IMG/VR virus record: IMGVR_UViG_3300049734_000196
Coordinates: 1 to 41,071 of that record
Reading direction: 5' to 3' (one strand)
Length of the DNA: 41,071 nucleotides
DNA from: a virus
Shown: piece after piece, positions 1,730-37,734 of the stretch
Layout of the letters: each line of letters opens with the position of its first letter
Position numbering within the stretch: the first letter of the stretch is position 1
The notes under the pieces: model-generated
The model's database searches: none
What the model was told of the DNA's origin: nothing
Seen by the model: only the letters and a program-made list of their open reading frames with translations
Position numbers and translations under genes: made by a program

Positions 1730-2139
1730 TGCCTGCCCCCACCGATCTCACCCCAGATCTCCAGCTCCGTCAGCTTCCACCTCTTCTGCACTCCCTCATC
1801 AGCGATCTTGAAGATGAACCAGTTGGCTCCAGGCAGCCTGACCTTCTGCCAATCAGGCTGCTCCGATACGGAGATGACGGGGAAGTCAGTCCAGTCCTTC
1901 CTGTTCTTTGAGTACCGAACATAGATCTTCAGCTGGGGGATGGACCCAGGGCTGTCGATCTCCACTATGATCCGCTTGATGTGCTTCTTGATATCCTCCA
2001 GCGTCTGTTCCGCAGAGGAGAAGTCCAGGGGCTTCGTCTCCAGCCAGCACATGGTGGTGTCCACAGCGGTGGAGAGGTTGAAGGCCAGTCCATTGGCCCT
2101 GGTCAACCTCATCGTCACATTCCCCTTGGCCTCAGCCAT
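1726..2139 (-). CDS. Hypothetical virion protein, discoidin-like beta-sandwich possible
   Basis: 137 aa. The ATG at 2139-2137 overlaps the upstream stop by 8 bases (ATGGCTGA) and has GGAGTGG upstream. The protein alternates beta-strand-like segments (RIIVEIDSPG, QLKIYVRYSKNRKDW, VRLPGANWFIFKIAD) and ends ELEIWGEI. This 'strand - charged loop - WF/FKI - L.EIWG' layout recalls F5/8-type (discoidin) carbohydrate-binding sandwiches; that is a visual resemblance only. It lies between the propeller-like tail gene and another beta-rich protein, so a tail or host-contact role is plausible. Confidence 0.6.
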   Translation of the reverse strand: MAEAKGNVTMRLTRANGLAFNLSTAVDTTMCWLETKPLDFSSAEQTLEDIKKHIKRIIVEIDSPGSIPQLKIYVRYSKNRKDWTDFPVISVSEQPDWQKVRLPGANWFIFKIADEGVQKRWKLTELEIWGEIGGGRQ

Positions 2140-3385
2140 CACCACTCCAGTTCCCACCGAACATCAGCCCACCAAACGCCCCCTCTCCAAACCCATTCCC
2201 ATCGTACTGAACAGAGGGATCGGAGACGTCGAGAGGGGTTCCGGTATCCGGGGCTACATCCAGATACCCAGCCAGCCAAATGTCCCCTGCGCTGTCCCCC
2301 ACCACAGTGTGGTCGAACACGTTGTTCCTGGCAGCGGCTGATCGGACTAGGCCAGGCAGACCCCAAACCTTCTCCCTGATATGCCAGCAGGCAGATCTGT
2401 TCAGCACGGTGCTGTTCTGACTGCACCAGTGCACAAAGACCCGCTGGGTATTGGGTTCCACCCAGACCACGCACTTGGAGGACTGGACGTAGTTGAAGTC
2501 CTTGAAGATGTAGTCACGGAGGGACGGTATGTCCAGGTATTCAAACCTGCCACCGTCTGTCACCCAAAATCCCTGCGGCCCAAACCCATAGAGCAGGGAT
2601 TCGTACTGAGTAACACAGTGCTTGCTAAAGCACCCCACTCCAGTCAAGACCCGGTTGGAGGCGATCCACAGCGGCGCGCCGATGAAGGAGACAATGAACA
2701 TCCGGTTCTCGGTGAACATGGCAACGTGCTCACCGTATTCAATGGCTGCGATCAGAGCCGAGTCCGTGTCCCTGATGGGGAGTTCCCCGGCTTCAGACGA
2801 CAGGCTTCCCAGCGCCCAGTCCTCCACGTTGTCCAGCCGGCACCACCAGATCGTCTTCCCTCCATGGGCTCCATCATCCCAGTTTATGCCGATCATGAAC
2901 TGCTTCAACCGGATGAAGATCTCCGGCTTCCACCCTACATAGGGCAGGCCAGTCAGGGGCACAAACCCCGCCCCTGCTGCCTTGTCGATCTGTGGGGCGT
3001 CGATGCCATTGGTAGCCAGCGCCCACTTGCCCCAGCTCTCGAGGGACCACCTGGTGGCCGGCTTGACCTGGGTAGCGTTCAGCAGCCCACCATAGCCAGT
3101 CCCCACCTGGGTCACGGTATTGGTGGAGTCGTCGAAGGTGAAGAGCTTGTCGATGGACCCCCAGTACAGAATCCGCTTCCCACTCCGCTCCATGTCCAGC
3201 ATCCCTCGGACTTCTGCCTGCTGCAGCTTGGCGAGGAGCTGGACGTGCCCCGGTTCCGGCTGGGGGTACCCACCGGAGAACATGATGTTGGAGCCGGTCC
3301 TCCAGAGGGGGATCTTCGACTCCGACAGACCAGGGTGAACCCCGGAGCCGATCAGCTGTCCCGATGCGGCAAGGAGCTTGCTCAC
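2132..3385 (-). CDS. Beta-propeller-like tail/hub protein (P22 gp10 or T7 gp12-like role)
   Basis: 417 aa, GTG start overlapping the upstream stop as GTGA. The sequence is built from repeated short strands with W, G and D turns. It includes a block typical of podoviral propeller hub or nozzle proteins: ALIAAIEYGEHVAMFTENRM, IASNRVLTGVGCFSKHCV, LLYGFGPQGFWVTDGG, and FEYLDIPSLRDYIFKDFN. Proteins of this sort close the portal channel and stabilise packaged DNA, or form the tail nozzle. The family link is recognition by pattern; the exact role (stopper or nozzle) is inference. It sits next to the collar-domain fibre gene. Confidence 0.65.
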   Translation of the reverse strand: MSKLLAASGQLIGSGVHPGLSESKIPLWRTGSNIMFSGGYPQPEPGHVQLLAKLQQAEVRGMLDMERSGKRILYWGSIDKLFTFDDSTNTVTQVGTGYGGLLNATQVKPATRWSLESWGKWALATNGIDAPQIDKAAGAGFVPLTGLPYVGWKPEIFIRLKQFMIGINWDDGAHGGKTIWWCRLDNVEDWALGSLSSEAGELPIRDTDSALIAAIEYGEHVAMFTENRMFIVSFIGAPLWIASNRVLTGVGCFSKHCVTQYESLLYGFGPQGFWVTDGGRFEYLDIPSLRDYIFKDFNYVQSSKCVVWVEPNTQRVFVHWCSQNSTVLNRSACWHIREKVWGLPGLVRSAAARNNVFDHTVVGDSAGDIWLAGYLDVAPDTGTPLDVSDPSVQYDGNGFGEGAFGGLMFGGNWSGDG

Positions 3386-4188
3386 AGCGCCCTGATGATG
3401 TAGTTGAGGGTGATGTAGGGGTTCAGGTGGTTCTCGGACGAAGGCTGGGCGAAGGAGCTGCCGGGCTGGATGTCAGTGCCGATGGTGTTGTGGCTGTGAC
3501 TCTTGCTGCCTCCCGTCTCGCCCAGAGTGTTGAACTCGGAGTCGGTGCCCTTGCAGAATACGACCCTGTTGCGAATGTCAGGGATCTTGAAGTTGTTGCC
3601 TCCAGGGTCCGTACCGTAGACGTGAGCCGAGCCGATGGCTGCCCACAGGGCAGCGTAGGTGGTCTTGCTGATCGCCCTACCATCACAGAGGAAGTACTTG
3701 TTCAGCCAGTCACCTGCGGGGTCCGAGGTGCCAGCGTAGGGCATCACGCCACCAATGGGGATGCCCAACTCTGCGGGCGGTGCAGCAGCAGGCTCCGTTC
3801 CTGCAATGGAGTCCCAGATCCAGTTGGCTCCGTCGAAGCGGGAAGAGTGGACGACGCCCGTGTCCACCTGATACACCAGGCACCTTCGGTACCGAGCCGG
3901 GTCCAGCGCGGTCAGGGCAGCAGCGTCCGCCACGTATAGGGACTGGGAGTAGACAGCCCAAACAGCTGCCGCCGCCACACCCGCTGTCACGCAGGTCCAG
4001 ACGAAGCCGTTGGTGGAGTCGTAGAGACGCTGCCCTACATACTCCCCCGCCACCAGCCCGGTCGGGTCCCCCGCCTGCTCCTTCGTCAGCCGGTCCTCGA
4101 TCTTCTGCCAGTTCGCCCTGGTCGGGGCCCCCCAGGCACCAGTACCGTCAGCCGTCAGATCCAGCTGGAGCTTGGCAGTTTCCGGCAT
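3382..4188 (-). CDS. Tail fibre protein with phage tail collar domain
   Basis: 268 aa. ATG at 4188 has GGAGGT five bases upstream and shares one base with the preceding stop (TGATG). The C-terminal half carries the phage collar domain signature: IGGVMPYAGTSDPAGDWL, FLCDGRAISKTTYAALWAAI, YGTDPGGNNFKIPDIRNRVV (about residues 145-210), followed by a His-containing GGSKSHSHNT stretch and the terminal YITLNYIIRAL. The N-terminal half (LQLDLTADGTGAWGAPTRANW) resembles the attachment end of short tail fibres. Likely a trimeric fibre or receptor-binding part of the tail. Confidence 0.85.
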   Translation of the reverse strand: MPETAKLQLDLTADGTGAWGAPTRANWQKIEDRLTKEQAGDPTGLVAGEYVGQRLYDSTNGFVWTCVTAGVAAAAVWAVYSQSLYVADAAALTALDPARYRRCLVYQVDTGVVHSSRFDGANWIWDSIAGTEPAAAPPAELGIPIGGVMPYAGTSDPAGDWLNKYFLCDGRAISKTTYAALWAAIGSAHVYGTDPGGNNFKIPDIRNRVVFCKGTDSEFNTLGETGGSKSHSHNTIGTDIQPGSSFAQPSSENHLNPYITLNYIIRAL

Positions 4189-4640
4189 CACGCACCTCCA
4201 ACAGGGAGCGACCAGGTGACGACCAGGGTGTCTCCGTTGAACATGTCGAACCTCTGACTGAGCCAGCGGGCAGCCATCGTCCCACCTGCCCCGGCATTGA
4301 ACAGCCCCACCTCTTCGACTGAGATCTGCGCCCCGACCCAGGCGAACGTCCCAGCGTAGCTCATGGTGTTCAGCAGCCGCGCCCCCGCGCCCGTAGCCAC
4401 CCGCATGTGCTCCGTACCCTGGAGAGCGGTGTGGGCCTCCGTTGCTGCCGCCCCACTGGAGCCGATGGCCATGTGGCTGATCGCAGCGTAGACCCCATCA
4501 CCTACGATCCGGCTGCAGAACAGCTCCTTCCCCAGGGTGGTGACGAGGTTCTTCCCTGTGACGGTCCACAGGCGCCGCCCCCTCCGATGAAGGACCATGA
4601 CCCACCGGCCCTGCATTTCCAGCCCTGCCTCAATCATCAT
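4188..4640 (-). CDS. Hypothetical tail-region protein
   Basis: 150 aa. Starts at one of two tandem ATGs (4640 or 4637) behind GAGGAGAGAG. The protein begins MMIEAGLEMQGRWVMVLHRR and ends in strand-like segments (FAWVGAQISVEEVGLFNAGA, DTLVVTWSLPVGGA). The 'MAIGSSGAAATEAHTALQGTE' type region (core: MAIGSSGAAATEAHTAL) matches what I know of small phage proteins found just upstream of tail fibre genes, where T.L....R segments precede a fibre. Probably a tail fibre or baseplate accessory; function unproven. Confidence 0.65.
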   Translation of the reverse strand: MMIEAGLEMQGRWVMVLHRRGRRLWTVTGKNLVTTLGKELFCSRIVGDGVYAAISHMAIGSSGAAATEAHTALQGTEHMRVATGAGARLLNTMSYAGTFAWVGAQISVEEVGLFNAGAGGTMAARWLSQRFDMFNGDTLVVTWSLPVGGA

Positions 4641-4648
4641 CTCTCTCC

Positions 4649-4852
4649 TCACTGACGGACTGTGGGCAGGTTCAGGTTGAACCCGAAGAGCTGGAGCAGC
4701 CACAGCAGGACGATCAGGGCGAAGACCACGTTCACCACCACCTTGATGATCCGCTGACTCGGCGCCGGAATCAGGTTGTCGATGATGTAGTTGATCAGGA
4801 AAAAGACCACTGCGATGATCAGCAGAGCGACTACCAGACTTACGAGACTCAT
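4649..4852 (-). CDS. Small two-TM membrane protein (Thivi_2564-like; possible holin)
   Basis: 67 aa, ATG start with AGGAGGAAGAG directly upstream. Two membrane helices are visible: residues about 2-24 (SLVSLVVALLIIAVVFFLI) and about 39-60 (VVVNVVFALIVLLWLLQLFG), joined by IIDNLIPAPSQRIIK. The layout matches the short Thivi_2564 family of membrane proteins. Size, two TMs and a position next to a lipoprotein with a second hydrophobic segment fit a class II holin, but that role is inference and no endolysin gene was found to pair with it. Confidence 0.7.
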   Translation of the reverse strand: MSLVSLVVALLIIAVVFFLINYIIDNLIPAPSQRIIKVVVNVVFALIVLLWLLQLFGFNLNLPTVRQ

Positions 4853-4861
4853 CTCTTCCTC

Positions 4862-5383
4862 CTACGGTGCCGGTTTCGGCACAGGATCGAGGCCGGGCGG
4901 TGTCAGCACCACGCCCTGCTCGCCGGCCTCCCGAATCGCCTCTGTCTTGACTGCATTGTCCGAGGCGTTCTTGTCCACCGAAGCCCTCTTCCCAACCCGC
5001 GACAGCGCATGGACGGCCTTGGCCCAGATCGCGTTCACCCAGACAAAACCACCAGCCACCACTCCCCACTTCAACACATCTTCCGTCACCACGCTCCTGG
5101 CCTCGACTGCCATCCCATCCCCCCCAACGCAGCTTTCCAGCTTTGTCTCGGGCATTTCCCTCTGACCTTCAACCCTCTTCTTCGCCTCAGCCTTGCAGCT
5201 TCCACTGGCCTTCACGGTGGTGAGGTCGTAGTCCATCAGGACAGAAGCATGGCGCTCCGTATCCTTCTGCTCCACCCTTCTCTCCACCAGCCCCGCTCCA
5301 TCGTAGTACTCTGTCTCCGTCGTCGCGGTCCTGTTGTGTGTCGCGCACGACAGACAGAGGAGGATGCAGAGTGCCTTCCTCAT
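4862..5383 (-). CDS. Lipoprotein with second hydrophobic segment (unimolecular spanin candidate)
   Basis: 173 aa. The N-terminus MRKALCILLCLSCATHN is a lipoprotein signal with the lipobox cysteine at residue 13. A long charged periplasm-like stretch follows, then a second hydrophobic segment at about residues 104-124 (VLKWGVVAGGFVWVNAIWA) and a Pro-rich end, PGLDPVPKPAP. Known u-spanins join an outer-membrane lipid anchor to a TM helix in one chain and act in outer-membrane disruption at lysis; here about 50 residues follow the TM, which is longer than usual. It lies next to the holin candidate. An alternative is an envelope-modifying lipoprotein. Confidence 0.65.
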   Translation of the reverse strand: MRKALCILLCLSCATHNRTATTETEYYDGAGLVERRVEQKDTERHASVLMDYDLTTVKASGSCKAEAKKRVEGQREMPETKLESCVGGDGMAVEARSVVTEDVLKWGVVAGGFVWVNAIWAKAVHALSRVGKRASVDKNASDNAVKTEAIREAGEQGVVLTPPGLDPVPKPAP

Positions 5384-6208
5384 CTAGTCCCCTACGCTGG
5401 TGTACCAGTCGTCGATCTGGAAGTAGATGGACTCCGGTGGGGAGGCTCCTCCACCACCATAGGTCGGGTCCACCCACAGATACGACCAGTTCGCGTCAGC
5501 CTGGGTTTCTGCTCCCTCCAACGTTCCAGTCCACATCACGTTGGTAGCGTTCACGATCAGCTCGCCGTTCCTCCACAGCTTCGCTGTACCATTCGCTACG
5601 TTCGGCGTCCCCATCTCGATCAACCACTCCAGCCTGTACCACGCTCCGACTGGAACCGTCACCCCCTCCAAGCTGTTGTGGTTCGTGCTGGAACAGGCCC
5701 CGGTGACGCATTGTGTCTGGAAGCCCCCACGGTAGGGATAGCTGCCATACGTGCTGTGGATGTATCCGTTCTGCCTCGACGGAGTCCCCTGATCCGAGAT
5801 CGTAGAACGGGCGAATACGAACTTCGTGTTGGCGTTGCCGTTGTTGCTCCAGTTGGGGCTCTGGTAGACCCACACAGAACTGTAGAGCCTCCGCTTCCCC
5901 CCAAAGTCATCACCAGCCAGGAAGCGGGAGGGGGAGTCACCACCAGCAGTGGAGGTGGGGAACGTAATCCTGAACACGTTCGGAGTCGTGCCAGGAGAGG
6001 TGGGATCGTTGACCACTGTGAGGGTGGGGCACTGACCACTGAAGCACTTGTACCCGAAGGAGTCCTTCGTCGGATGCGTCGGAGGCAGCGTATCCATGGG
6101 GTTCATCGGCCAGCGCGCAGTCATCCCCTCCGGTTCGTTCGGGTACAGAACCGTAGGCGCGGGCGGGCCTAGAATCACACCAAGTAGGATGAAAGCTACA
6201 GGCGTCAA
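5384..6208 (-). CDS. Secreted or anchored jelly-roll-like (LamG/polysaccharide-lyase-like) protein
   Basis: 274 aa. I chose a TTG start at 6208 because it overlaps the upstream stop as TTGA with GGAG upstream; the protein then begins MTPVAFILLGVILGPPAP, a hydrophobic signal or anchor. The body has motifs seen in heparin-lyase-like and laminin-G-like jelly rolls: LYSSVWVYQSPNWSNN, TVPVGAWYRLEWLIEMGTPN, AKLWRNGELIVNA, IYFQIDDWYTSVGD. This fits a carbohydrate-binding or cleaving domain. The family match is by pattern; no catalytic residues are assigned. It is one of six consecutive genes with envelope-directed N-termini. Confidence 0.65.
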   Translation of the reverse strand: MTPVAFILLGVILGPPAPTVLYPNEPEGMTARWPMNPMDTLPPTHPTKDSFGYKCFSGQCPTLTVVNDPTSPGTTPNVFRITFPTSTAGGDSPSRFLAGDDFGGKRRLYSSVWVYQSPNWSNNGNANTKFVFARSTISDQGTPSRQNGYIHSTYGSYPYRGGFQTQCVTGACSSTNHNSLEGVTVPVGAWYRLEWLIEMGTPNVANGTAKLWRNGELIVNATNVMWTGTLEGAETQADANWSYLWVDPTYGGGGASPPESIYFQIDDWYTSVGD

Positions 6209-8193
6209 AACAAATTCTCCGGACACTCGAAGGGCTCGTCCCAAGGAGTATCTTCGTTCGGGTCAGTGTTGTTGGCCTGTTCAGTGAAGTTGATGAACCC
6301 GTCTCCATCGGTGTCACCGTTCCCAGCTTCGGCAAAGTTACCGAAGTGGTGCATCTCCCAGGCGTCAGACAGACCGTCTCGGTCGGCATCCACCCACTTG
6401 GTCGCGGGTGCAGGCTCAGGCTCTGCAAACCTACCATTGGAGGGCACAGTGACGGTGGGCGTACTGCTGGTAGGAATGTCAGTTCCATTGTCCACCGAGT
6501 TCACTACATCCTGGTCGATGCCGTCTCGTGTGGGGCAGATGGCTCCGATATCACTCTTGATCTCATTCCACACGTAGCCAACCCCACCAACAGGAATGGT
6601 CGGGGGAGGGTACTTCGATTCCCACTGGGGATGGTGCCGCCTGTTGTTGTACCACACACCCCTGCGATCGTGTGAGCTGGGGCTGGTATGTCCATCTCCA
6701 ACAAACTCCCACTGCGGATCTCCCAGCAGAGCTGGTGTCCCAGGGTTCACCATCTGCCAGGTGGTTCCATCATGCCACAGGTGGCTCTGCCCATCAATGA
6801 ACATGCTGCCGGCATGAGAGTCGTTTTCCACCCGAAGGGCGTAGGCAATGGGAATGTCTCTGGTGCAGGAGGCATTTGTATCCGGTCCAGGGCAGTCGTC
6901 TCCGTGCGGACCCCACGGGTCCTGCCCGATGTTGCACGCAAGGCTGGGGTCCGCCACACACCTGCCCATGAACCGATCCAGGTTCTTGTTCACACAGGTC
7001 CCTGCCCCACCTGTGCAGTGTCCATCGTTCATGCACCGCTTGGTCGTGGTGATGGAGCAGTTTCCCGTCTCCCCAGCTCCGAACCGCACCTCTCCATCCC
7101 GAATGTCCACTGAGGTAGCGGGGCCATCTACCAGCTGGCTACCCCGCCCAGTGTTGCTCACTTCATCAGCCCATTCAAACCCATTGGCCCTCTGATTGTA
7201 GTTGACTACATTCCGCACCTCTCCCCTAAGGCGGAAGAACTTTGGTGAGCGGTAGGTGGAGTGGGCGAACAGACCCCTGGCCATCGTGAGAGGGCCACAG
7301 CGGAGTGGATAGCCCCAGGGATTCGCTCCTTCGCTGGTACTCCAGCGGGAACCCTTCGCATCCTCTCCCTGGATGTTCACCTTTGGGAACGTGGGGTGGT
7401 TCTCTGCGTTCCCATCGTAGCCTGAAGAGACGATGAAGTTGGTTAGGGAGAGATCGCTGGCTCCAGGGAATCCGCAGGTGCCATCCACTCCCTCATCTCC
7501 GTAGAACTGGACGGAGACATGATCGTGGATGGAGCGCGTATCACGACGGTCCGATAGGTCGATCCCTCTCATGGTGGCCCCACCCTGGAGCCAACAGTTG
7601 TCGAGGTCTCCAAGGCAACAGGCCACGTCCATCGGCTCACAGATATTCGCCACTCCCGAGCCCTTGAGCCAGTTTCTGTACCCAGTCCCATCCATCACGT
7701 CATGCCTGTGGCGGACCCCCTGGACGATGACAGAGTGGGTGCTCACCCTATTCTCTGGCGTGCCCACGTCGAGGGTGTATTTTGTCATGGTCACGTTCTT
7801 GATAACGAACGTCCCTGGTGCCACAGTACAGGCCAGATACGTTCTCGAAGGGAGGTACAGAAGGCCTGGGAGAAAGTCGCCATTGTTCGGCGGGGCGTAG
7901 AGGCCCGAAGTGTTGCAGGCGATGATCCCATAAGAGTTCGGGTTGGCGAGCCAGTCCTGCAGCCGCTCGTCGATGGCCTCCTGCAACTGGCACACGTCTG
8001 GCGGCCCACCACAGCCATCATCGTCCGCTGTGCCCTTGTCGTCCACGACGTAGATCGTGGTCAGGCTCCCAGCCGGCGGGCGGTCTGCCGTGCAGCCATG
8101 CCCGATGCAGCCCGGGAACGGGGGCTGGGGCTTCCCAGGATTCATCACGAATCCTGCAAAGAGGAAGCTGGCGAGAACGAGTACCAGCCACAT
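6205..8193 (-). CDS. Secreted pectate-lyase-like beta-helix protein with Ca-binding C-terminal repeats
   Basis: 662 aa. The N-terminus MWLVLVLASFLFAGFV is a signal-like hydrophobic segment. The core shows the polysaccharide lyase family 1 pattern: VIVQGVRHRHDVMDGTGYRN, HDHVSVQFYGDEGVDGTCG, GLFAHSTYRSPKFFRLRGEV followed by RNVVNYNQRANGFEW, matching the 'H..LFAH...R.P' and 'VVNN..YN' of pectate lyases. Later residues hold a Cys-rich loop (CMNDGHCTGGAGTC). The C-terminus has two acidic loops, DADRDGLSD (602-610) and DTDGDGFIN (627-635), typical of thrombospondin-3/dockerin-like Ca2+ sites. Probable depolymerase or capsule-binding protein; an exported phage version is unusual. Confidence 0.7.
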   Translation of the reverse strand: MWLVLVLASFLFAGFVMNPGKPQPPFPGCIGHGCTADRPPAGSLTTIYVVDDKGTADDDGCGGPPDVCQLQEAIDERLQDWLANPNSYGIIACNTSGLYAPPNNGDFLPGLLYLPSRTYLACTVAPGTFVIKNVTMTKYTLDVGTPENRVSTHSVIVQGVRHRHDVMDGTGYRNWLKGSGVANICEPMDVACCLGDLDNCWLQGGATMRGIDLSDRRDTRSIHDHVSVQFYGDEGVDGTCGFPGASDLSLTNFIVSSGYDGNAENHPTFPKVNIQGEDAKGSRWSTSEGANPWGYPLRCGPLTMARGLFAHSTYRSPKFFRLRGEVRNVVNYNQRANGFEWADEVSNTGRGSQLVDGPATSVDIRDGEVRFGAGETGNCSITTTKRCMNDGHCTGGAGTCVNKNLDRFMGRCVADPSLACNIGQDPWGPHGDDCPGPDTNASCTRDIPIAYALRVENDSHAGSMFIDGQSHLWHDGTTWQMVNPGTPALLGDPQWEFVGDGHTSPSSHDRRGVWYNNRRHHPQWESKYPPPTIPVGGVGYVWNEIKSDIGAICPTRDGIDQDVVNSVDNGTDIPTSSTPTVTVPSNGRFAEPEPAPATKWVDADRDGLSDAWEMHHFGNFAEAGNGDTDGDGFINFTEQANNTDPNEDTPWDEPFECPENLF

Positions 8194-8194
8194 C

Positions 8195-10267
8195 TCAGTT
8201 CACCGGGATGCCGCCAGAGTACACCTCGAACGTGCAGGTCGAGATGATGCTCGGGCTGTCGTTGTCGCCGTCACCAGTTTCCGTGATCCTGAACTGGGCA
8301 ATCAGTAGGTCGTCGATTGCACCAGCATCCAGGTCCAGCGGAATCTTGATCATGTAGTCCCCGTCCGCATCGACTGCCTGGTCGATCAGCTTTACGCTGC
8401 TGGTCTGTGTCCACGCCGGCGTCTGTCCAGCACCCTGGCCAGGTACGACGCCATCGTAGACGTCTACCACCACGGAGTACGATTCTCCAGCCTCCAGGGC
8501 GGTGTTCGGGCCCACCCCACAGATGGCACCGGAGAAGTGGAGTGGTCCAGCCAACGGGAAGGTGGTGGAATCCAGCTGAACATCCGACGTACAGTTTCCC
8601 AACACACCACCAGCCGACAGAACCTGGAAGCAGGTATTGGTCGTGTTGTGGACACCCTCCGTGGCGACCCTGATCAACTGGGCATTGACGGAGGGCAGGC
8701 GTTCCTGACCCATCGTCTCACGCCAGAACTGCCCACCCTCACCCGGCCCTGTTCCACCGAACTCGAAGAGGCGGCTGCCGGAGGAGGGGGCTGTATTCGC
8801 CACAGCGGTCAGGGTTTCGTTCCTGGGGTACGTGGCACCCACTGTTCCATCGTTCGGGCCAGTGAACACTGGAGCCGCCAGCTCCAATCTCTTGTTGTCC
8901 TGGTTGTCCTTGTAGACCCGGATCGGCGCCCCTGCCGCGGTGGGACCAGTGGTCCCGATCCTGAAGTCGATCCACCCCTCTGCCAGCTGGTTCGAGTTTC
9001 CTCTCGCACCGGTGGCCAGGACCCCCATGCACAGATCCAGCTCCCCGGCAGATGGGATTCCTGTCGTGGTTCCAGTGATGGTCGAATCCGACAGGCACAC
9101 TGACGGATTGGGACTGGGAACCGTAGCGACGGTGTTGGCGAGGAGGGTGTCGAAGGTCTGTAGCCCTGAGAAGGTGTTGTCCACCGTCGGATCGAACAGG
9201 TCTGCGACCCACGACGACTTCAATCTCTCGCCACCAGCGAATCGGAACGCCCCACTACTGTGAACGAAGAAAGCCTGTTCACCGAGGTTGACCAGGGCAT
9301 TATCCCAGTTCACTGAATCTGCGAAGGCGAGGCCTGTGCCGTTGTGGACGAAGTTGAGTGGGCCTGCCAGAATACCGGACCTGATGATGAGGTAGTCACC
9401 TGTGGTCGCACCAGCATCAGTGATGGTTACGTTGCAGCCATCCGGGTCCGAGTTGAGGATCGTGATACTGGTACTACTGGTACTCCACGCGATCGTCCCA
9501 GTATCCGGAGAATCGGCGACGCTGTTGTCCGTGCAAGCTGCAGAATCCGTCGCGGCCCCTCCGAACCTCGGGGGAGCCGTAAAGATCGTTCGAGCGGTGA
9601 ACGTCTTGGCGCCAGTGGCGAAGGTCTGTACGCCTGTCAGCGTGGCAACCACCGCGGTGTCTGCGCTGCACCCGACCGCACCTGTGGTAGGGGAGCAGGT
9701 AACACCCGCGGAGCCGGTGACAGACGACACGCTTCCAGCGGAGCCATCGTCTGTTCCATCGAGGAAGCCCGCGGGCATCCCGATGATCTGCTGCCAATGC
9801 AGCTTCCCATCGCTGGCATTGGGTCCAGCAACGTTGGCATCGTCCATCTCCGACATTGCGGTGTCGAGGTCCGCGGCGGCAAACTTGCTGTCGGCGTCGT
9901 CGAAGGAGCAGAGGTCCCCGTCCTTGACCTCGGCGTCTCGATGGAGTCCAGCCGCGATGGACAGCGCTGCGGTCCAGCCTTCCCCAGGCGTACCGCCCAC
10001 CACGATCTCGGCATCGCCCGTGACGCTGGAGACGTAGTTGCCCACCGTCTCCGTGCCCAGGGTCGGATTGACTTCATCCTTCTCCCCGGCGCCACCAACC
10101 CGAGCATCGGCGAACTCCCCACTGGTCGTGTCGGCCGCGGTGTGGGTGTGGACACCCGGGTCTCCGCCGCCACCCCCACCTCCGGGATCGTCGCTCGGGT
10201 AGGACGCGGCATAGAGGATGCCCGGGAGAACCAGCCAGGGAACCAGGAGTAGGAATCTGCGCTTCAT
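8195..10267 (-). CDS. Tail-fibre-like protein with Sec signal peptide
   Basis: 690 aa, ATG start behind GGGGAAG. The N-terminus is a textbook Sec signal: MKRR, then LLLVPWLVLPGIL, and an AxA-type site at LYA-AS. A Gly7 linker and VHTHTAADTTSGEFADARV follow, the 'HTHTA.D..SG.F' motif of many phage tail fibres. The long middle has fibre-like low-complexity repeats (SSVTGSAGV, GVQTFATGAKTFTA) and scattered Cys. The C-terminal 200 residues look like a globular beta domain (FRITETGDGDNDSP near the end). A signal peptide on a fibre is hard to reconcile with assembly in the cytoplasm. Confidence 0.7.
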   Translation of the reverse strand: MKRRFLLLVPWLVLPGILYAASYPSDDPGGGGGGGDPGVHTHTAADTTSGEFADARVGGAGEKDEVNPTLGTETVGNYVSSVTGDAEIVVGGTPGEGWTAALSIAAGLHRDAEVKDGDLCSFDDADSKFAAADLDTAMSEMDDANVAGPNASDGKLHWQQIIGMPAGFLDGTDDGSAGSVSSVTGSAGVTCSPTTGAVGCSADTAVVATLTGVQTFATGAKTFTARTIFTAPPRFGGAATDSAACTDNSVADSPDTGTIAWSTSSTSITILNSDPDGCNVTITDAGATTGDYLIIRSGILAGPLNFVHNGTGLAFADSVNWDNALVNLGEQAFFVHSSGAFRFAGGERLKSSWVADLFDPTVDNTFSGLQTFDTLLANTVATVPSPNPSVCLSDSTITGTTTGIPSAGELDLCMGVLATGARGNSNQLAEGWIDFRIGTTGPTAAGAPIRVYKDNQDNKRLELAAPVFTGPNDGTVGATYPRNETLTAVANTAPSSGSRLFEFGGTGPGEGGQFWRETMGQERLPSVNAQLIRVATEGVHNTTNTCFQVLSAGGVLGNCTSDVQLDSTTFPLAGPLHFSGAICGVGPNTALEAGESYSVVVDVYDGVVPGQGAGQTPAWTQTSSVKLIDQAVDADGDYMIKIPLDLDAGAIDDLLIAQFRITETGDGDNDSPSIISTCTFEVYSGGIPVN

Positions 10268-10268
10268 G

Positions 10269-10652
10269 CTACTTCCCCGTCAGGTAGACGTCGCCCGTCC
10301 CGCTGACTCCGTTGAACCGAACCTTGACGAACGTGTCCTCCATGGCCGGACCGTAGGCCCAGTCCCCCGCGGCTGCGTCCATGTTCGTCTGCCGTAGGTC
10401 CTTGCAGGTGGTCCCATCCTCCTTGCAAGCCTGTGGCATCCCGATCACTGTCCCCCAAACAGTGAACGTGAACCCCTTCAGGTTCATGTTGTTCACCCGG
10501 ACTGCCGCCGACGCCCCCGCACCCGCCTGGGCGTGGATGCAGTTCTGTGACGGCTGGAGCTTGTCACAGGGGTTGGAGGTCTGGAAGTCCTTGAAGTCCG
10601 CCGCCGCAGGAGCGGCCACCAGCAACGCTGCCAGAACGAGAATCCCCTTCAT
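10269..10652 (-). CDS. Small secreted Cys-containing protein
   Basis: 127 aa, ATG overlapping the upstream stop (ATGA) behind GGGAGGTGG. The N-terminus MKGILVLAALLVAAPAAADF is a Sec signal peptide with a likely cut at AAA-DF. The mature part, about 108 aa, holds four cysteines (NPCDKL, QNCIHA, QACKED, TTCKDL) that could form two disulphides, and beta-like segments (KGFTFTVWGTVIGMP, FVKVRFNGVSGTGDVYL). It resembles the C-terminal style of the neighbouring fibre-like protein, so it may be a small exported partner. No family recognised. Confidence 0.65.
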   Translation of the reverse strand: MKGILVLAALLVAAPAAADFKDFQTSNPCDKLQPSQNCIHAQAGAGASAAVRVNNMNLKGFTFTVWGTVIGMPQACKEDGTTCKDLRQTNMDAAAGDWAYGPAMEDTFVKVRFNGVSGTGDVYLTGK

Positions 10653-11278
10653 ACCACCTCCCTCGGGAGGTACTGGGACCGTGAATCCCTGAGACTCTCC
10701 CGCAGTTCCATGTCTGCCATCAAGAGACTCTTGATGGCCTGGGGCTTCAGCGCCCCATACATCTCCATCAGGCTCTTGTCCCTGGTGACCGGGGCCAGCC
10801 TGATCATCACCTCACACAGCAGCAAATCCTCCCCATGCACTACCAACCACGGGGCACCAGCATCGGGCCACGTCGTGAACCTGGCAACCACCAGGGACGT
10901 GTCGTAGGGGGTGGAGGTCTTGGCATCGAGGGAGGCGTACCGGCTCTCCGTGAGGTAGAAGTAGCGGGCCTTCCCATCGGAAATCGAAGCGAAGTCGAAG
11001 GGATCGACCTGGATCAGATGGACGATCTCTCCTTCATCCGAATCCGTATAGTACCAGTCAACCACCTTCTTGATCAGCGCCGCACCCAGGTCCACAACCG
11101 GCGGATCTACCGCCGGAATGGAGACGGTCTCCTTCTTCTCCATGTAGGAGAGTGTCCAGTTCTGCTCGATGAACCGGGCGGCCCTGGCGGTAACGCCGGG
11201 GAGGTGGGCGGTGAGGGTTTCCGCCTCGTTCAACTCGAAGATCACTCGGTCGTAGAATTCAGCCAGGTCGGTCGCCAT
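10649..11278 (-). CDS. Head-tail adaptor protein (gp6/gp11/SU10-type)
   Basis: 209 aa, ATG behind GAGGGAA. The N-terminal helices (LAEFYDRVIFELNEAETLTA, ARAARFIEQNWTLSYMEK) and the strand-rich middle followed by a long helical end (EDLLLCEVMIRLAPVTRDKS, LMEMYGALKPQAIKSLLMAD) match the layout of podoviral adaptor proteins that dock under the portal ring. It sits just downstream of the capsid gene, the usual place. The role is inference from pattern and position. Confidence 0.6.
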   Translation of the reverse strand: MATDLAEFYDRVIFELNEAETLTAHLPGVTARAARFIEQNWTLSYMEKKETVSIPAVDPPVVDLGAALIKKVVDWYYTDSDEGEIVHLIQVDPFDFASISDGKARYFYLTESRYASLDAKTSTPYDTSLVVARFTTWPDAGAPWLVVHGEDLLLCEVMIRLAPVTRDKSLMEMYGALKPQAIKSLLMADMELRESLRDSRSQYLPREVV

Positions 11279-11352: not shown

Positions 11353-12579
11353 CTAGCCCTGACCCGTGGTCTGGAAGCCCTGGACCAGGTGGTGCGTCTC
11401 CGGGAAGTGCACCTCCAGCCCGCACTCCGAGAGGTACTCGGACTGCATCCCGTCGAGCCCGTTGCTCTGCCGGTTGGGCAGGTACTTGGTGTCGGAGTCC
11501 TTCAGGTAGCGGTACCTGATGTTCTCCATGTCCAGCACCAGGCCGGCGGAGTTGTAGCCGACGTAGGGCGTGCCACCCGTGGTACCTCCCACCATCTCGT
11601 TGAAGAGCGGGTGGGTCTTCAGCACCAGCGTCCCGAAGGGGGAGATGACGCGCATGACGTTCATGCCGTACTCCTTCTGCCCCTGCTGGAAGTCGTAGGT
11701 GGTGTTCTTCCGGATCAGCTGCTGCATCGAGAGGGCGAAGATGTTCCCGCAGAGGACCAGCTTCTCCTGGGAGCCGTAGCGGAAGATGAACTCCATCCAT
11801 GCCTCGAAGATGGACATGGTGACGGTAGTGGCCGCCCAGTTCGTCTTCTGCGCCGCCGCCAGGAAGCTGACGATCCCACCGCTGGACCGTCGGGGGTGAG
11901 CCCCCGTCAGGTCCTGGGACCGGACACCCCAGATGCTGGCACGCTCGATGCCGACGCCGTGCATCTCCAGCGCCTCGCGCTTGGACTCCTTCACCTGGTC
12001 CCCGGTGCGGAGACGGGTCTTGGAGGCCGTGCGCGTGATGCCGAGAGCCGTGCGATGGATCTGCGTGTAGTTGAAGTCCTCGGTCGGGTTGTAGCCGATC
12101 GAGTTGGGGATGTCTTGCCCCTCCATGAAGGCCGTGCCGATGACGATGAGGTTTGGGTTGATGCCCGCGCCTGCGAAGGCCACGGCAGTCGGCGTGGTAC
12201 CGCCGAAGCCGCGAACCACCGCGAGCGTGGTGTTGGTCGTCGGGTCTGCGCTGACCCGCACCAGCTCACCCGACTGCTCGACCAGCACGATCGTGTCCTT
12301 CAGGGCGTGCTTCGCGCCGTGCCCGTCGTCCACGATGGTCCAGTTCTGAGCACCCGCCGCTGCGTCGATGTTGGCGCCCAGCACCATCCGGCGCTGCTGG
12401 AAGCGCTTCATGAAGTAGTTGTAGCGCGGGTCGTCCGTGCTCTCCTTCTTCATCATCGAGGTCAGCCCGGTCAACGGCATCTTGCCGTTCGGGAAGAGGA
12501 AGAGGATCATCTCCCTCCAGTTCTGCGGACGCTGCCCGGAGGTCCAACCGTCCGTGTTTCTCAGGCCTTGAATCGGCAT
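11353..12579 (-). CDS. Major capsid protein (SU10-type HK97 fold)
   Basis: 408 aa, ATG with GGAGGCGG upstream. Recognised as the SU10 major capsid family by the N-terminal arm (RNTDGWTSGQRPQNWREMIL), the P/A domain core (IERASIWGVRSQDL, KLVLCGNIFALSMQQLIRKN), the segment TLVLKTHPLFNEMVGG and the end LECGLEV-like SECGLEVHFPETHHLVQGF. Length is normal for the family. It lies directly downstream of the scaffold gene, as expected, and is followed by a strong hairpin. It forms the icosahedral shell around the packaged genome. Confidence 0.85.
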   Translation of the reverse strand: MPIQGLRNTDGWTSGQRPQNWREMILFLFPNGKMPLTGLTSMMKKESTDDPRYNYFMKRFQQRRMVLGANIDAAAGAQNWTIVDDGHGAKHALKDTIVLVEQSGELVRVSADPTTNTTLAVVRGFGGTTPTAVAFAGAGINPNLIVIGTAFMEGQDIPNSIGYNPTEDFNYTQIHRTALGITRTASKTRLRTGDQVKESKREALEMHGVGIERASIWGVRSQDLTGAHPRRSSGGIVSFLAAAQKTNWAATTVTMSIFEAWMEFIFRYGSQEKLVLCGNIFALSMQQLIRKNTTYDFQQGQKEYGMNVMRVISPFGTLVLKTHPLFNEMVGGTTGGTPYVGYNSAGLVLDMENIRYRYLKDSDTKYLPNRQSNGLDGMQSEYLSECGLEVHFPETHHLVQGFQTTGQG

Positions 12580-12598
12580 GGCGCCGCCTCCAGCGAAC

Positions 12599-13495
12599 CT
12601 AGTCGATCAGGTCCGCCATGAAAGCCTCCTGGGTGTCCTTCGCCGGACCACCCGGAGGCCTCGCACCACTCGGAACCCGCCTCGGGCCACCAGCCCTGGG
12701 CGGTTCGGCCGGAGGTTCCCCATTCGGGGGCGGGGCCGCTGCCGGCTTCCCGTTGAACCCCAGGATGGACTCCAGCCTCTTCCCAACAGCGTCCCTCAGC
12801 TCGGGCGTCCACATTTGAGCATTCGTTTCAGCAGCAACTCGTTCGGCGACGCTTGCAATGAAGATCTTCAGTTCCGGCTTGTTGTAGCCGGGGTAATGGG
12901 AGTAGAAGTCGTCGTGTACCCTCTGGTCCTGCTCCTTGGCCGTGGCGATGGAGTGGACCGTGGTGGGGATCTCCTTCCCCAGCGCAGCCAGCCGCTCCTC
13001 CACCTTCTTCATGGTGTGCCTGTAGGCCACGTCCAGGGCACCATTGATGACCGTCTCCAGGGCCTGACCCCGGGTCTCCCCGTCCTCCGACTCCAGCAGT
13101 TCCCGCACCTGCTTGGGGATGGAGAGGCCAAAGATCCGCGGCTCCGGTTCCGGAGCCTTCGGCGCCGGCTCTGCCGGCTTGGCCCGAGTCAGCTGTTCCC
13201 GGAGCGCCCTGTTGTCTCGCTCCATCGCCTCCAGCCGTGCCAGCAGGGCAGGGTCCGTAGGAGGAACAGGGGCTGCCGGGGCGGCCGGCTCTGCGGGCGT
13301 CGGAGCCGCAGCGGCCGGGGCGGCGGGCTCGGCCGGAGTGGCGGCCGGTGGAGCGGTCGGCTTCTCCGGCTCCTCCGGGGGCTTCGCCTTCTCCTCCATC
13401 GGGTCGAAGACGAACAGATCCTCCAGCTCCTCCGGGCTGTAGGTCTGCTCCTCCGTCTCCTGCTCTTCCTTCACCGCTTCGGGCTCGTCCGCCAT
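12599..13495 (-). CDS. Probable capsid scaffolding protein
   Basis: 298 aa, ATG at 13495 sharing one base with the upstream stop (TGATG), GGGGAG upstream. The N-terminal half is acidic and then Pro/Ala/Glu repeats (PAEPAAPAAAAPTPAEPAAP), followed by a coiled-coil-like helix (LLARLEAMERDNRALREQLT) and a helical C-terminal half. Low complexity, acidic charge, coiled coil and position between portal and capsid are typical of scaffold proteins that guide procapsid assembly. There is no protease motif, so any removal must use another protease or exit intact. Confidence 0.7.
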   Translation of the reverse strand: MADEPEAVKEEQETEEQTYSPEELEDLFVFDPMEEKAKPPEEPEKPTAPPAATPAEPAAPAAAAPTPAEPAAPAAPVPPTDPALLARLEAMERDNRALREQLTRAKPAEPAPKAPEPEPRIFGLSIPKQVRELLESEDGETRGQALETVINGALDVAYRHTMKKVEERLAALGKEIPTTVHSIATAKEQDQRVHDDFYSHYPGYNKPELKIFIASVAERVAAETNAQMWTPELRDAVGKRLESILGFNGKPAAAPPPNGEPPAEPPRAGGPRRVPSGARPPGGPAKDTQEAFMADLID

Positions 13496-13749
13496 CACTC
13501 ACTCTCCCCTTGGGTTGCGAGGTCCATGAGTTTGTCCAGGGTTGTCAAACTCGCCCTGAACTTCCCCAGAACACTCTTTGACATGGCTAGGACCGACAGG
13601 TCTCTTGCACCCTGTACGACATGCCTCCACGCCATGATGAAGTTCGGATGCTGGATCACCGCTGCCAGCCACTCCTGCTCTTCCTTCACCAGCGCCCTCG
13701 CGGGCAGGTGAACCATCTCCATCACCTTTTCTCTGACTTCAGGCTCCAC
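13495..13749 (-). CDS. Small helical protein between portal and scaffold
   Basis: 84 aa, GTG start overlapping the portal stop by 11 bases and ending at the scaffold start. Mostly helical: KVMEMVHLPARALVKEEQEW, LAAVIQHPNFIMAWRHVVQG. No motif recognised. Small proteins in this slot are frequent in podoviruses; the dense coupling suggests a head-assembly role, without direct evidence. Confidence 0.6.
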   Translation of the reverse strand: MEPEVREKVMEMVHLPARALVKEEQEWLAAVIQHPNFIMAWRHVVQGARDLSVLAMSKSVLGKFRASLTTLDKLMDLATQGESE

Positions 13750-15769
13750 GCATCAGCCCCTGCAGCGCCTGCTGCACCGGAATCAGATTCCCTGCCTGCG
13801 CCCCAGCCTCCACCACTTCATTCGGCTGAACGCTACTACCGGGTACTGCCCCCGGCGGGAGGCCCGCCGGGGCGGGGGCCCGCTTGAACTGCTCGATGTT
13901 CCTGGCACCACCCAGCTCCATGGTGTATTCCACCATCTTCCCAATGTCGTACTGAGCCCGAAGCTCCTGGTCCTGCGCGATGGCTTGAGTCCCTTCCTTC
14001 CAGATCTCGAACAGCGCCAGCCGATCCGGCGGGAGGACCCCATCGTGAACCGGGTAGGTGAAGTCGCCCACCAGGTGCTCCGGGGTCAGCAGGATCTTCT
14101 GCCCGTCGGCTCCCAGGACCGTGGCAGCGAACTCCTCCGAGAGGTACTGCTGGGTGTTCAGAGACATCTGCTCCGTCAGGTCCGTGATGGACTGGGCACT
14201 GATGATCCGTGCCAGGAGCGCGAGCCGGGAGATCGCGGCCTCCCCAGCAATCCGCATCTCGGTCGCTGTCTTTCTTCCACCCTGCTGCGGAACGCCCATC
14301 ACATTCTCGTTGAACCCGAGCATCAGCTGCCCGAGCCGCATCATCAGCTCCACGTCCTTCGGGTGGTTCGCTGTGACGTCGAATACCTGCATCTGCATGA
14401 TGGCCTGCCGAACATCCTGGCCCTGAGCGCTCGGCTTCAGCCGGATGTTCTTGCCCGGGCCAGGCCGCTCCAGATCCTTCCTCTCGATCATGTGAGGGTC
14501 GTAGACGAAGATGTTGTTCAGGTGCAGCCTGACGTTCTCGACGTGGCTGTTGACGAACCAGGAGATCAGATCCTGAATGGGCCCGATGAAATCCATCATG
14601 CTGGGCTGGCCGAAGCCATACCCGAAGGAGGTCGGCTCGCAGACGGAGACCCGGTGCTTCCCGTGGTCATCATCCACAGGCTCCGCCGCCAGGATCTGCC
14701 CCATGTTCCCGATAGCGAAGTACCACAGTTCGGGCTTCTCCGAAGCCGACAGCTCCAGCTTGCTGGGAATGATCTGGGCGGTGCCCTGATCCAGCTGGAC
14801 GAAGTAGTCCGAGTCGAACTCGGTCCCAGGTACCTGTAGCCCAGTCTGCCCAGGGATCGGCTCACCTTCCGACAGCAGCGACCGGTTGCTCCAGGAGGCA
14901 CCGTACTTGTTGATCTCCGTTGTTCCCCGCGGAATCTTCCCAACGTACTTCAGGTCCCCCGCCGTCTCCATCTTCATCAGCGTCATCAGGGAGGTGAACG
15001 TCCGCTGGAACACCGTCTCCCCTCTAGTATTCACCTCCGTCATCGGAACCCTGTGGTCCGGGAAGAAGAGATACGGGTCGATGTTCTCTACCGCGTTCCC
15101 CTCATAGACCACCCGCTCCTTCCTGGTCCTCCCCATCACCGGCACCGTCCCGCCCAGCGGGTTGGTGACGAGCTTCTGCTCCCTGACGGTCCGCATGGCC
15201 TTGACGACTTCCCACTCCGTCCAGAACGCACCCAGGCCATACAGGGTCACGTCGGAGAAATGCTGCCAGAGCTTCTTCACCAGCCGGATATGATCCGACT
15301 GGTACTGAAGCATCTCCTCCATGTGCCGCGCGTTCTGGACCGCCTCGTCCTTGTAGGACCCGATCGGGAACAGCGGCCGCCGGCCGCAGAAGGTGTGGAC
15401 CAGGAAGGTGCAGATGGTGCTGTGAGCTGCGTAGGCAAACGGGACCACGAGAGGAAGCGCCAGCGGCGGCGCCATCTTCTTCTCCTGCATCTCCTTCAGC
15501 GTCTTGTCGTAGTCCGGCAGGGTGATGTACGCTTGCACCCTCTGCTCGTTCGCGCGCCAGCGGGAGTGGAACCGGGTCATCTCCCTCTCGGAAGAGTCGA
15601 TCCGGTGCTTCAGGTAGTTCAGCACCTTCTCGTGGCGCTTCTCTCCCTCCGGCGTGGACTTGTCGAGTTTGTCGATGGGGCGGTCCAGCTCCGCCACCAC
15701 CTCGACGCCAGACTGGAAGTCGTGGTCTTGATCTTCCAGTTCTACCTGTAGATCAGCAGCCACGTTCAC
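13739..15769 (-). CDS. Portal protein
   Basis: 676 aa. GTG at 15769 overlaps the upstream stop as GTGA; a second GTG at 15763 is also possible. Portal-like features are the N-terminal helices (RFHSRWRANEQRVQAYITLP), the clip/stem region around GLGAFWTEWEVVKAMRTVRE, and the SU10/P22-like motif block QDLISWFVNSHVENVRLHLN, NIFVYDP, ELMMRLGQLMLGFNENVMGV, then RKTATEMRIAGEAAISRLAL. Length fits podoviral portals (500-750 aa). It forms the dodecameric DNA gate at one capsid vertex and docks TerL. It lies in the canonical TerL-portal-scaffold-capsid order. Confidence 0.85.
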   Translation of the reverse strand: MNVAADLQVELEDQDHDFQSGVEVVAELDRPIDKLDKSTPEGEKRHEKVLNYLKHRIDSSEREMTRFHSRWRANEQRVQAYITLPDYDKTLKEMQEKKMAPPLALPLVVPFAYAAHSTICTFLVHTFCGRRPLFPIGSYKDEAVQNARHMEEMLQYQSDHIRLVKKLWQHFSDVTLYGLGAFWTEWEVVKAMRTVREQKLVTNPLGGTVPVMGRTRKERVVYEGNAVENIDPYLFFPDHRVPMTEVNTRGETVFQRTFTSLMTLMKMETAGDLKYVGKIPRGTTEINKYGASWSNRSLLSEGEPIPGQTGLQVPGTEFDSDYFVQLDQGTAQIIPSKLELSASEKPELWYFAIGNMGQILAAEPVDDDHGKHRVSVCEPTSFGYGFGQPSMMDFIGPIQDLISWFVNSHVENVRLHLNNIFVYDPHMIERKDLERPGPGKNIRLKPSAQGQDVRQAIMQMQVFDVTANHPKDVELMMRLGQLMLGFNENVMGVPQQGGRKTATEMRIAGEAAISRLALLARIISAQSITDLTEQMSLNTQQYLSEEFAATVLGADGQKILLTPEHLVGDFTYPVHDGVLPPDRLALFEIWKEGTQAIAQDQELRAQYDIGKMVEYTMELGGARNIEQFKRAPAPAGLPPGAVPGSSVQPNEVVEAGAQAGNLIPVQQALQGLMRGA

Positions 15770-16410
15770 CCCTGAGGCGGCAGGTCAGCCGCCGACAGCA
15801 ACTCCATCATCTCTTCCTCCCCCAACTCCTGGGGGTTCCGCACCGCACTCATGATCCCGCGCAGGTTGTTCGCCAGGTCCACCAGGCTGTTCTTCGCGAC
15901 GGACTTCAGGCCAGCACCCTTCGGCAGCCCCGCCTGATCCAGGTTCCCCCGGATTGCCTCCACCACGTTCTTCAGCTCGTGCCCCACCCCACCCGCCAGG
16001 GCCGGCACCACCCCAGCCTTCAGCGTCGCGTTCCGGCTCCCTACCACATGCCGGTAGGCGTCCGCCTCCGGAGTCCTGGCCCCACCGTACCGCTGCCCAC
16101 CCGTTTCCAGCGCCGCCTGGAACTCCTCCGCCACATCCAGCAGCGCCCGCGGCATCGCCGGGGACTTCTCATCCAGCCTCACGATGGAGTCCAGGGCGGA
16201 GCGGAGCACGCCGAAGGGTTGGGCCTCGGGTCCGGGTGCCGGCCCCAGCTCCGGCATGTCCATCGCCTGCGGCTCCCCCTTCTTGGCCGCAGCCTCCTCC
16301 TTGTACAGGGTGTTGAACTTCGACCCCTGCCACTCGAAGGTGTCCACCCCGGAAGCTCTCGCCTTCGCGAAGGCCTTGGGGAAGGGGAGGCTGGAAAGGT
16401 CAGTAGCCAC
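15766..16410 (-). CDS. Hypothetical head-region protein
   Basis: 214 aa, GTG start overlapping the upstream stop by 11 bases. The N-terminus (FPKAFAKARASGVDTFEWQG) and a conserved-looking helical block, DAYRHVVGSRNATLKAGVVP then GGVGHELKN (roughly residues 115-145), stand out. The H-x..-N-x..-GHE spacing recalls 'D.YRH..A....GHE' segments of small phage virion proteins and some hydrolases, but I cannot assign a family. It may be a virion protein carried between terminase and portal genes. Confidence 0.6.
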   Translation of the reverse strand: MATDLSSLPFPKAFAKARASGVDTFEWQGSKFNTLYKEEAAAKKGEPQAMDMPELGPAPGPEAQPFGVLRSALDSIVRLDEKSPAMPRALLDVAEEFQAALETGGQRYGGARTPEADAYRHVVGSRNATLKAGVVPALAGGVGHELKNVVEAIRGNLDQAGLPKGAGLKSVAKNSLVDLANNLRGIMSAVRNPQELGEEEMMELLSAADLPPQG

Positions 16411-35083: not shown

Positions 35084-36481
35084 GTGAAGCGCAAGAACAT
35101 CCCTGTTGATGCAGTCAATGTACCTGCCGATCGGATTAGGGAGCTGGACCAGGAACGGGCAGCAGCCCTCGCCATCAGGATCGCCCGCTATGGGCTCCTC
35201 CATCCAATCACAGTCATTGAGGATGGAGAGGGAAAATTCATCCTGATTGCTGGTCGGCACCGCCTCGAAGCATTCGTCATCAACCAGCAGAAGAACATCC
35301 CCGCCTCCATCCTCGACCTCTCTGACCCCACCGACCGGCTGATTGTCGAGTATGAAGAGAACGTCAGAAGGAAGGACCTGTCCTGGCAGGACAACTGCCT
35401 CTACGTTCTCTCCATCCACGAAGCCCGGTGCAACCTGGACGAAGAGTGGAACAGCGAGAAGACGGCGGAAGACCTGGCGATCTCCGACTCCGCGATCTCC
35501 CGATACCTGAACGTGGGCCGGGCGATTAGGGAGAACGACGTGGAGATCTGCGAGGCGCAGAACCTGTCCGCTGCCAACGCCATCCTCGAACGGCGGTATC
35601 GGAGGTCAGTGGATCGGGAGATCTCCGACTTCGTGGAAGCGGGTGGAACCCTGGATGTGCTGGAGGAGATGCTGGCAGGTGTCCCCTCCATCACCAGCCC
35701 TTCTCGCGGTGTACCGAAGCTCCCCTCTGCCGAGAAGGCAATCCGCCCGGCGAAGATGGACATTCACGTCGGAGACTTCTTCACCTGGGCTCCGGAGTAT
35801 TCCGGTCCCAAGTCCGACTTCATCCACCTCGATCCCCCCTACGGGATCAGCCACGACGAATCAGACCAGGGTGGGGCCCGGCACTGGAACGCCTATGAAG
35901 ATACCCCGGAGATATTCTGGAAGTTCCTGAACACCCTGGTGGACAACCAGGACAACCTGATGCAGCCCAAGTGCCACATCATGCTGTGGTTCACGATGAA
36001 CTTCTACCGGGATATCCTGGCCTTCTTCGAGAAGCAGAAGGGCTTCAAGGTCCTGCCCCACCCGCTGATCTGGTACAAGTCAGACAACACGGGCATCGTC
36101 CCTGATCCGTTGCGGGAGGGGAGGCGGGTGTACGAAACAGCCCTGGTGATCAGCCGGGGTGACAGGCTGATTCGGAAGTCAGCCTCCAACCTGGCAGCGT
36201 TTCCCGCCAACAAGCACGCCACCGATCACATCTCCGAGAAGCCCAGGGGGATGCTCTCCCAGTTCTTCCGCATGTTCGTCGAGCCGGGTGACACCACGTT
36301 CCTCGACGTATGCTGTGGCTCTGGAAGCAGCGTGGTAGCAGCGGCTTTCCACCGGGCGAAGCACCTCTACGCTCTGGACCTGGACGATAGGAATGTGGAG
36401 ACCGCTCGTGGTAGGTTGGACTCCTTCCGACTCCAGGCTTCCCTCGGGCAAATCGACTACAGCACCACACCGCCGGAGTGA
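35084..36481 (+). CDS. ParB/Srx domain fused to a beta-class DNA methyltransferase
   Basis: 465 aa, GTG behind GGGGGG. N-terminal ParB-like domain: VPADRIRE (13-20), ARYGLLHPITVI (34-45), IAGRHRLEAF (55-64), ENVRRKDLSW (92-101), with a HTH-like KTAEDLAISDSAISRYLNVG (126-145). C-terminal N6/N4 methyltransferase: motif IV DPPYG (250-254) comes before motif I FLDVCCGSGSSVVAA (406-420), the beta-class order. It probably methylates adenine or cytosine N4 in phage DNA, perhaps against restriction. ParB-methylase fusions are known in phages; target site unknown. Confidence 0.88.
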   Translation: MKRKNIPVDAVNVPADRIRELDQERAAALAIRIARYGLLHPITVIEDGEGKFILIAGRHRLEAFVINQQKNIPASILDLSDPTDRLIVEYEENVRRKDLSWQDNCLYVLSIHEARCNLDEEWNSEKTAEDLAISDSAISRYLNVGRAIRENDVEICEAQNLSAANAILERRYRRSVDREISDFVEAGGTLDVLEEMLAGVPSITSPSRGVPKLPSAEKAIRPAKMDIHVGDFFTWAPEYSGPKSDFIHLDPPYGISHDESDQGGARHWNAYEDTPEIFWKFLNTLVDNQDNLMQPKCHIMLWFTMNFYRDILAFFEKQKGFKVLPHPLIWYKSDNTGIVPDPLREGRRVYETALVISRGDRLIRKSASNLAAFPANKHATDHISEKPRGMLSQFFRMFVEPGDTTFLDVCCGSGSSVVAAAFHRAKHLYALDLDDRNVETARGRLDSFRLQASLGQIDYSTTPPE

Positions 36482-37546: not shown

Positions 37547-37734
37547 CCGACAAGGCACTATTGGATTGGATGGAGTCACTGGCCAGCCCTGGTCAGCGCT
37601 GGTACGTCAGCGACCACGGCATCGTCCAGAGATGCACGGCGGAAGCGCTGACCGCTGGGTCTGTGGACCCCGAACTCTACAAGCACTCCACCCTCCGAGA
37701 GGCCATCAAGGACGCGAAGGGGAGGACTGTTTGA
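37543..37734 (+). CDS. 63-aa ORF inserted between exonuclease and polymerase genes
   Basis: MTDKALLDWMESLASPGQRW, YVSDHGIVQRCTAEALTAGS, then a short helical end DAKGRTV. ATG overlaps the upstream stop (ATGA) and its stop overlaps the polymerase TTG (TTGA). No motif recognised. It occupies the gap that cuts the exonuclease domain in two and keeps translation coupled through it. Confidence 0.6.
   Translation: MTDKALLDWMESLASPGQRWYVSDHGIVQRCTAEALTAGSVDPELYKHSTLREAIKDAKGRTV

Follow-up and report, generated by a model that had tools for sequence, protein, structure and literature searches.

A podovirus represented in the window studied here, a stretch of 41,071 nucleotides from a 41 kb IMG/VR viral record, carries an array of genes with secretion signals in the position where its relatives encode tail fibres. 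Since the fibre-like and glycan-enzyme-like products of these genes bear such signals, the infected cell probably exports them. The best explanation overall, which we give an even chance, is that of a Sec-exported array in the fibre slot whose members would act on glycans at the cell envelope or matrix around lysis. The fibres of tailed phages are held by textbooks to fold and to join the virion in the cytoplasm. No precedent for exported phage fibres or phage secretomes was found in the open-access literature searched, most subscription papers and preprints lying outside its scope.

By its capsid protein (MCP), the phage is kin to Kuura, a phage of Caulobacter (MCP 44%); PaP2 of the Fredfastierviridae is a more distant relative. 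Comparisons were made with roughly 120 related loci gathered by scanning for MCP and portal; the cultured phages aside, the material consists of metagenomic contigs, and both the signal rule and the gene caller are our own simple scripts. The window's MCP matches that of locus L001 at 48%, a homologous portal is present in 83 loci and TerL in 56, and the gene order is conserved, all of which places the phage within the PaP2/Kuura-related podovirus lineage. Read leftward on the minus strand, its late genes run from TerL, portal and MCP to a neck-type protein (10649–11278; phmmer matches in 23 loci, extended with a profile), which directly follows the MCP and forms the left border of the slot. 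Six genes come next, and after them a PHROG_5417 protein of about 150 aa (4188–4640; phrog_5417, E 8e-15), a 269 aa tail-collar-domain fibre without a signal peptide (3382–4191; PF07484, E 1.4e-12) that is presumed to be the virion fibre, and a nozzle/stabilisation-type virion protein (2132–3385; phrog_3287, E 6e-37), whose profile matches 64 genes in relatives and which forms the right border. The contig stops just past this last gene and the large internal virion genes are absent from it, so the record is probably incomplete. No endolysin was found among the window ORFs scanned, and one may sit in the missing end.

Among the 53 loci with both borders, the interval between neck and nozzle most often contains between zero and four proteins, as a rule of fibre size (200–900 aa) and sometimes accompanied by lysis genes. 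On these grounds the interval is taken as the fibre slot of the family and, in some members, as a lysis slot too. Within the same 53 loci, signals occur only in the window, in L127 and in one small lipoprotein of L022. The PaP2-like podoviruses (Fredfastierviridae) and Kuura share a related capsid protein and the head-gene order with the window, and in PaP2 the MCP is followed by lysis genes and by a large virion protein; unlike the window, neither PaP2 nor Kuura has a run of Sec-signal genes in the slot. A GTDB contig scan with the MCP profile returned 12 loci, none of them with an exported array.

The initial annotation had described six consecutive exported or membrane genes between 4649 and 10652. 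The six ORFs lie where it put them, head to tail on the minus strand, but the count of exported products was overstated: two signals are clear, two depend on the choice of start codon, and the final pair takes the position of a relative's lysis block. Strictly counted, two of the six pass our home-made signal rule, and these are adjacent. The first is a small protein of 127 aa (10269–10652), which begins with MKGILVLAALLVAAPAAA followed by DFK, has a canonical Sec/SPI signal with predicted cleavage between AAA and DF, is preceded by a strong SD (GGGAGG) and retains four Cys in its mature form. The second is the fibre-like protein of 690 aa (8195–10267), in which a canonical signal, MKRRFLLLVPWLVLPGILYA, precedes ASYPS and is followed by a Gly-rich linker and HTHTAADTTSGEFADARV; the signal peptide and HTHTA motif reported earlier are both borne out. 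Each of the two proteins has a basic n-region, a hydrophobic core and small residues at positions -3 and -1. As a measure of background, 647 distinct late genes (100 aa or longer) were taken from relatives outside the window and L014/L015; 6 of them pass the rule, as do shuffled N-termini of control proteins in 9 of 1200 trials.

In the next two proteins the start codon is uncertain. The 662 aa protein (6205–8193, minus strand) is rich in Cys (22 residues) and opens with MWLVLVLASFLFAGFV, which is hydrophobic but lacks a basic n-region; translation could begin at 8193 or, alternatively, at an internal ATG (8145) that is preceded by an SD and would leave the hydrophobic segment out. Its best Pfam match, to a C-terminal TSP3-like calcium repeat, falls below the cut-off at E 2e-4. 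Its earlier description as pectate-lyase-like was not confirmed, there being no Pfam match to a beta-helix or pectate lyase and the single-sequence AlphaFold2 model being uninformative (pLDDT 33; 34 for the 690 aa protein). For the neighbouring gene, a TTG at 6208 with a GGAG SD is preferred, giving 274 aa (5384–6208, minus strand), over a start at 6244 that gives a 286 aa ORF (5384–6244). The N-terminus of the 274 aa form, MTPVAFILLGVILG, is hydrophobic as previously stated and contains no basic residue; the jelly-roll assigned to it comes down to weak polysaccharide-lyase matches (PF14099 and PF21294, E about 0.002) below the cut-off.

The remaining two genes lie in the place of the relative's lysis block. 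A 173 aa protein (4862–5383, minus strand) has a Sec-like signal, MRKALCILLCLSCA, and a central hydrophobic segment. It had been called a lipoprotein, but its CLSC, with C at -3 and L at -2, departs from the lipobox [LVI][ASTVI][GAS]C. The 67 aa protein (4649–4852, minus strand) does have the two TM segments ascribed to it and is a possible holin; its match to Thivi_2564 (NF041949; E 4e-5) scores 23.6 bits against a cut-off of 33. A homologue of it in L028 (2753–2971) lies upstream of TerL and not in the fibre slot, suggesting that this small membrane gene moves.

Sequence searches with the array proteins were otherwise silent. Neither PHROGs nor Pfam gave a tail-family homologue of the 690 and 662 aa proteins, whose likeness to fibres is one of motif. 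There was no match in the PDB for the 286, 662 and 690 aa proteins, none by tblastn against INPHARED for the 127, 286, 662 and 690 aa proteins, and none when IMG/VR was scanned with those of 662 and 690 aa. Nor did any of the window's array proteins give an identifiable catalytic domain.

The most direct parallel to the array is found in L015, whose MCP is 46% identical to that of the window and whose sequence was recovered identically from two metagenomes (L014 and L015). Directly after its neck gene stand seven consecutive genes with canonical Sec signals, encoding proteins of 167, 459, 63, 373, 243, 97 and 656 aa. Past these lie a membrane gene, an M15-type endolysin, a second membrane gene, a PHROG_5417 homologue (34% identical to the window's protein in the same place, E 4e-21), a signal-less fibre and, last, the nozzle gene. 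The two phages thus have in common the order of neck, exported array, lysis-type block (in the window the 173 and 67 aa proteins), PHROG_5417, fibre and nozzle. The 373 aa exported protein of L015 contains fibre repeats common to unexported podovirus fibres. Among the loci compared, this is the one other phage with such an array; its exported proteins have no convincing sequence homology to those of the window.

The Cys content of the exported proteins is also distinctive. Once the signals are removed, Cys makes up 2.26% of residues in the exported proteins of L015 and the window, compared with 0.77% in the remaining late proteins (p about 1e-10); the window's proteins of 662, 274 and 173 aa, for which export is less certain, are counted among them as exported. 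The number of Cys is even in 11 of 12 exported proteins and in 9 of 17 Cys-containing controls. Both the enrichment and the even number fit the formation of disulfide bonds outside the cytoplasm.

Elsewhere in the group, signals are attached to recognizable fibre domains. A 468 aa protein of L064 matches, over residues 26–136 directly after its signal, the extreme N-terminus of the unexported fibres of L035 and L036 (36–40% identity). This N-terminal domain, with the pattern WNETTPAGTE.P.LGDDRIRE.K.AIRERLA.DH.F, also occurs in many unexported fibres of the same slot, and a scan for it found 42 viral loci. In 38 of these it opens the protein, or nearly so, and no signal precedes it. By alignment, a canonical signal is joined directly before it in L123 (identical to L124), L127 and L128 (identical to L064); the window's 690 aa protein lacks the domain. 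The signal-bearing fibre gene lies between neck and nozzle in L123 and L127, where no other fibre stands in the slot and the presumed virion-binding domain is retained, and directly before the nozzle gene in L064. Over its C-terminal half, the L127 protein shares 40% identity with a tail fibre from the cultured Sulfitobacter phage pCB2047-C, a fibre that itself has no signal. Beta-helix proteins with Sec signals (PF13229) occur in further relatives (L049/50/51, L058, L062 and L065). In L064, a run of apparent glycosyltransferase-like and related genes, judged so by sequence, extends from 11725 to 16372 between the MCP and the exported fibre.

The notion from which the work started, export of fibre-like and glycan-enzyme-like proteins by a phage, is supported in its main line by replication in other phages, by signals fused to a fibre domain and by the Cys statistics. 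The functions first put forward for them (coating of the cell, blocking of rival phages, loosening of the matrix, late addition to virions) are hypothetical. Most likely the exported proteins constitute a recurrent "exported fibre" variant, secreted late and putatively acting on surface glycans around lysis. In the proposed course of events, at least the 127 and 690 aa proteins, and probably also those of 662 and 274 aa, would be made late and cross the inner membrane by way of host Sec; their signals would be cleaved off, and folding with disulfide bonds would take place beyond the cytoplasm. Around lysis they would then bind glycans, or cut them, in the envelope of the infected cell or in the surrounding matrix, with the effect that receptors are masked or destroyed and progeny freed. 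The collar-domain fibre without a signal would serve as the ordinary virion fibre. Of these steps, the slot and its shared gene order are demonstrated and export is well supported by the sequences; the action on glycans and its timing are proposed. For the group at large, it is a slightly less than even prospect that true tail-fibre and tailspike proteins are sent through Sec, either to coat the infected cell or to join virions outside the cytoplasm.

The main rival to a secreted, glycan-active role is that the exported proteins are themselves virion fibres, which would cross by way of Sec, undergo maturation in the periplasm and be added to virions only at or after lysis. The Cys pattern of the window and L015 proteins, resembling that of disulfide-bonded proteins, speaks for this as well, and so do L064, L123 and L127, where the fibre N-terminal domain is kept after the signal in or beside the slot. 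In L123 and L127, the retention of the presumed virion-binding domain on the sole fibre of the slot favours a virion role. In the window and L015, however, a separate, signal-less fibre occupies the virion position, which is why the secreted, glycan-active role is favoured there, and there is no known route by which periplasmic fibres could reach cytoplasmic virions before lysis. Exported virion fibres are accordingly considered unlikely as an explanation of the array, at about one chance in five in our judgement. Fusion of signals exactly to the fibre domain in three phages, together with arrays of up to seven genes in two others, would mean either that phages secrete fibre-type proteins that act on the host surface or on neighbours, or that fibres have another route to virions. 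Either reading, if true, would give the lytic cycle an additional stage and alter how fibre and depolymerase genes of metagenomic viruses are read.

A somewhat less probable alternative is that the array consists of accessory or host-derived genes (auxiliary or moron genes), whose secreted carbohydrate-active or adhesive products alter the surface or nutrition of the host and are unrelated to fibre function. The Cys-rich content and the TSP3-like repeat do recall secreted bacterial proteins, and bacteria are known to export comparable products. Pantoea WceF is an exported, tailspike-like glycan enzyme that modifies the matrix (PMC7949094), and the Bdellovibrio MAT fibres have a conserved 130 aa domain after the signal peptide and an S74 or lectin tip (PMC10769870). 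Both resemble the window proteins by description; WceF is bacterial and has a Tat signal where the window has Sec signals, and the MAT fibres, a bacterial analogue, are encoded by the bacterium and serve predation. Against an accessory origin, the array lies inside the late virion operon at the fibre slot and has a phage-like composition, exported proteins of relatives contain phage fibre domains, and a GTDB contig pattern scan with the 690 aa protein found no bacterial homologue. Use of host Sec by late phage proteins is established for exported endolysins, Lys44 of fOg44 among them (review: PMC6116005); these are peptidoglycan enzymes for lysis, whereas the window's exported proteins have no endolysin domain.

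It is improbable, to a further degree, that these are ordinary virion proteins whose hydrophobic N-termini are retained as assembly or membrane-attachment segments in the absence of export. The N-termini of the 662 and 274 aa proteins, being devoid of basic residues, and the location of the genes among virion genes would suit such a role. Against it stand the basic n-region, hydrophobic core and small-residue cleavage site seen in the 127 and 690 aa proteins and in almost every exported protein of L015, the fibre domains that begin directly past the predicted cleavage site, and the enrichment and parity of Cys. Least credible, and very improbable, is an assembly chimera of bacterial secreted-protein genes and a phage contig: both array-bearing genomes are metagenomic with no cultured example, but L014 and L015 are identical from two metagenomes, collinear arrays occur in two different phages, the genes overlap and their GC matches. 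The composition of the array matches that of the phage, and host contamination as a source of the window genes was rejected on composition and synteny.

Several other features of these genomes deserve mention. In the window, a single ORF (35084–36481) joins a ParB-like N-terminal part to a DNA methyltransferase part. Two adjacent ORFs beyond it (36491–37546 and 37566–39212) correspond to consecutive portions of a single DNA polymerase family (phrog_17), the first resembling a uracil-DNA glycosylase part; the polymerase seems to be split, or a frameshift lies between the two ORFs. In L111 (1401–2222), a phage protein of 273 aa has a Sec signal and a sequence likeness to trypsin-like serine proteases. 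The PEP-CTERM motif is a sorting tag of exosortase systems, and proteins combining a Sec signal with this motif (PF07589) at the C-terminus are encoded upstream of TerL in L013 (362–1042; also in L098) and L061 (2102–2755).
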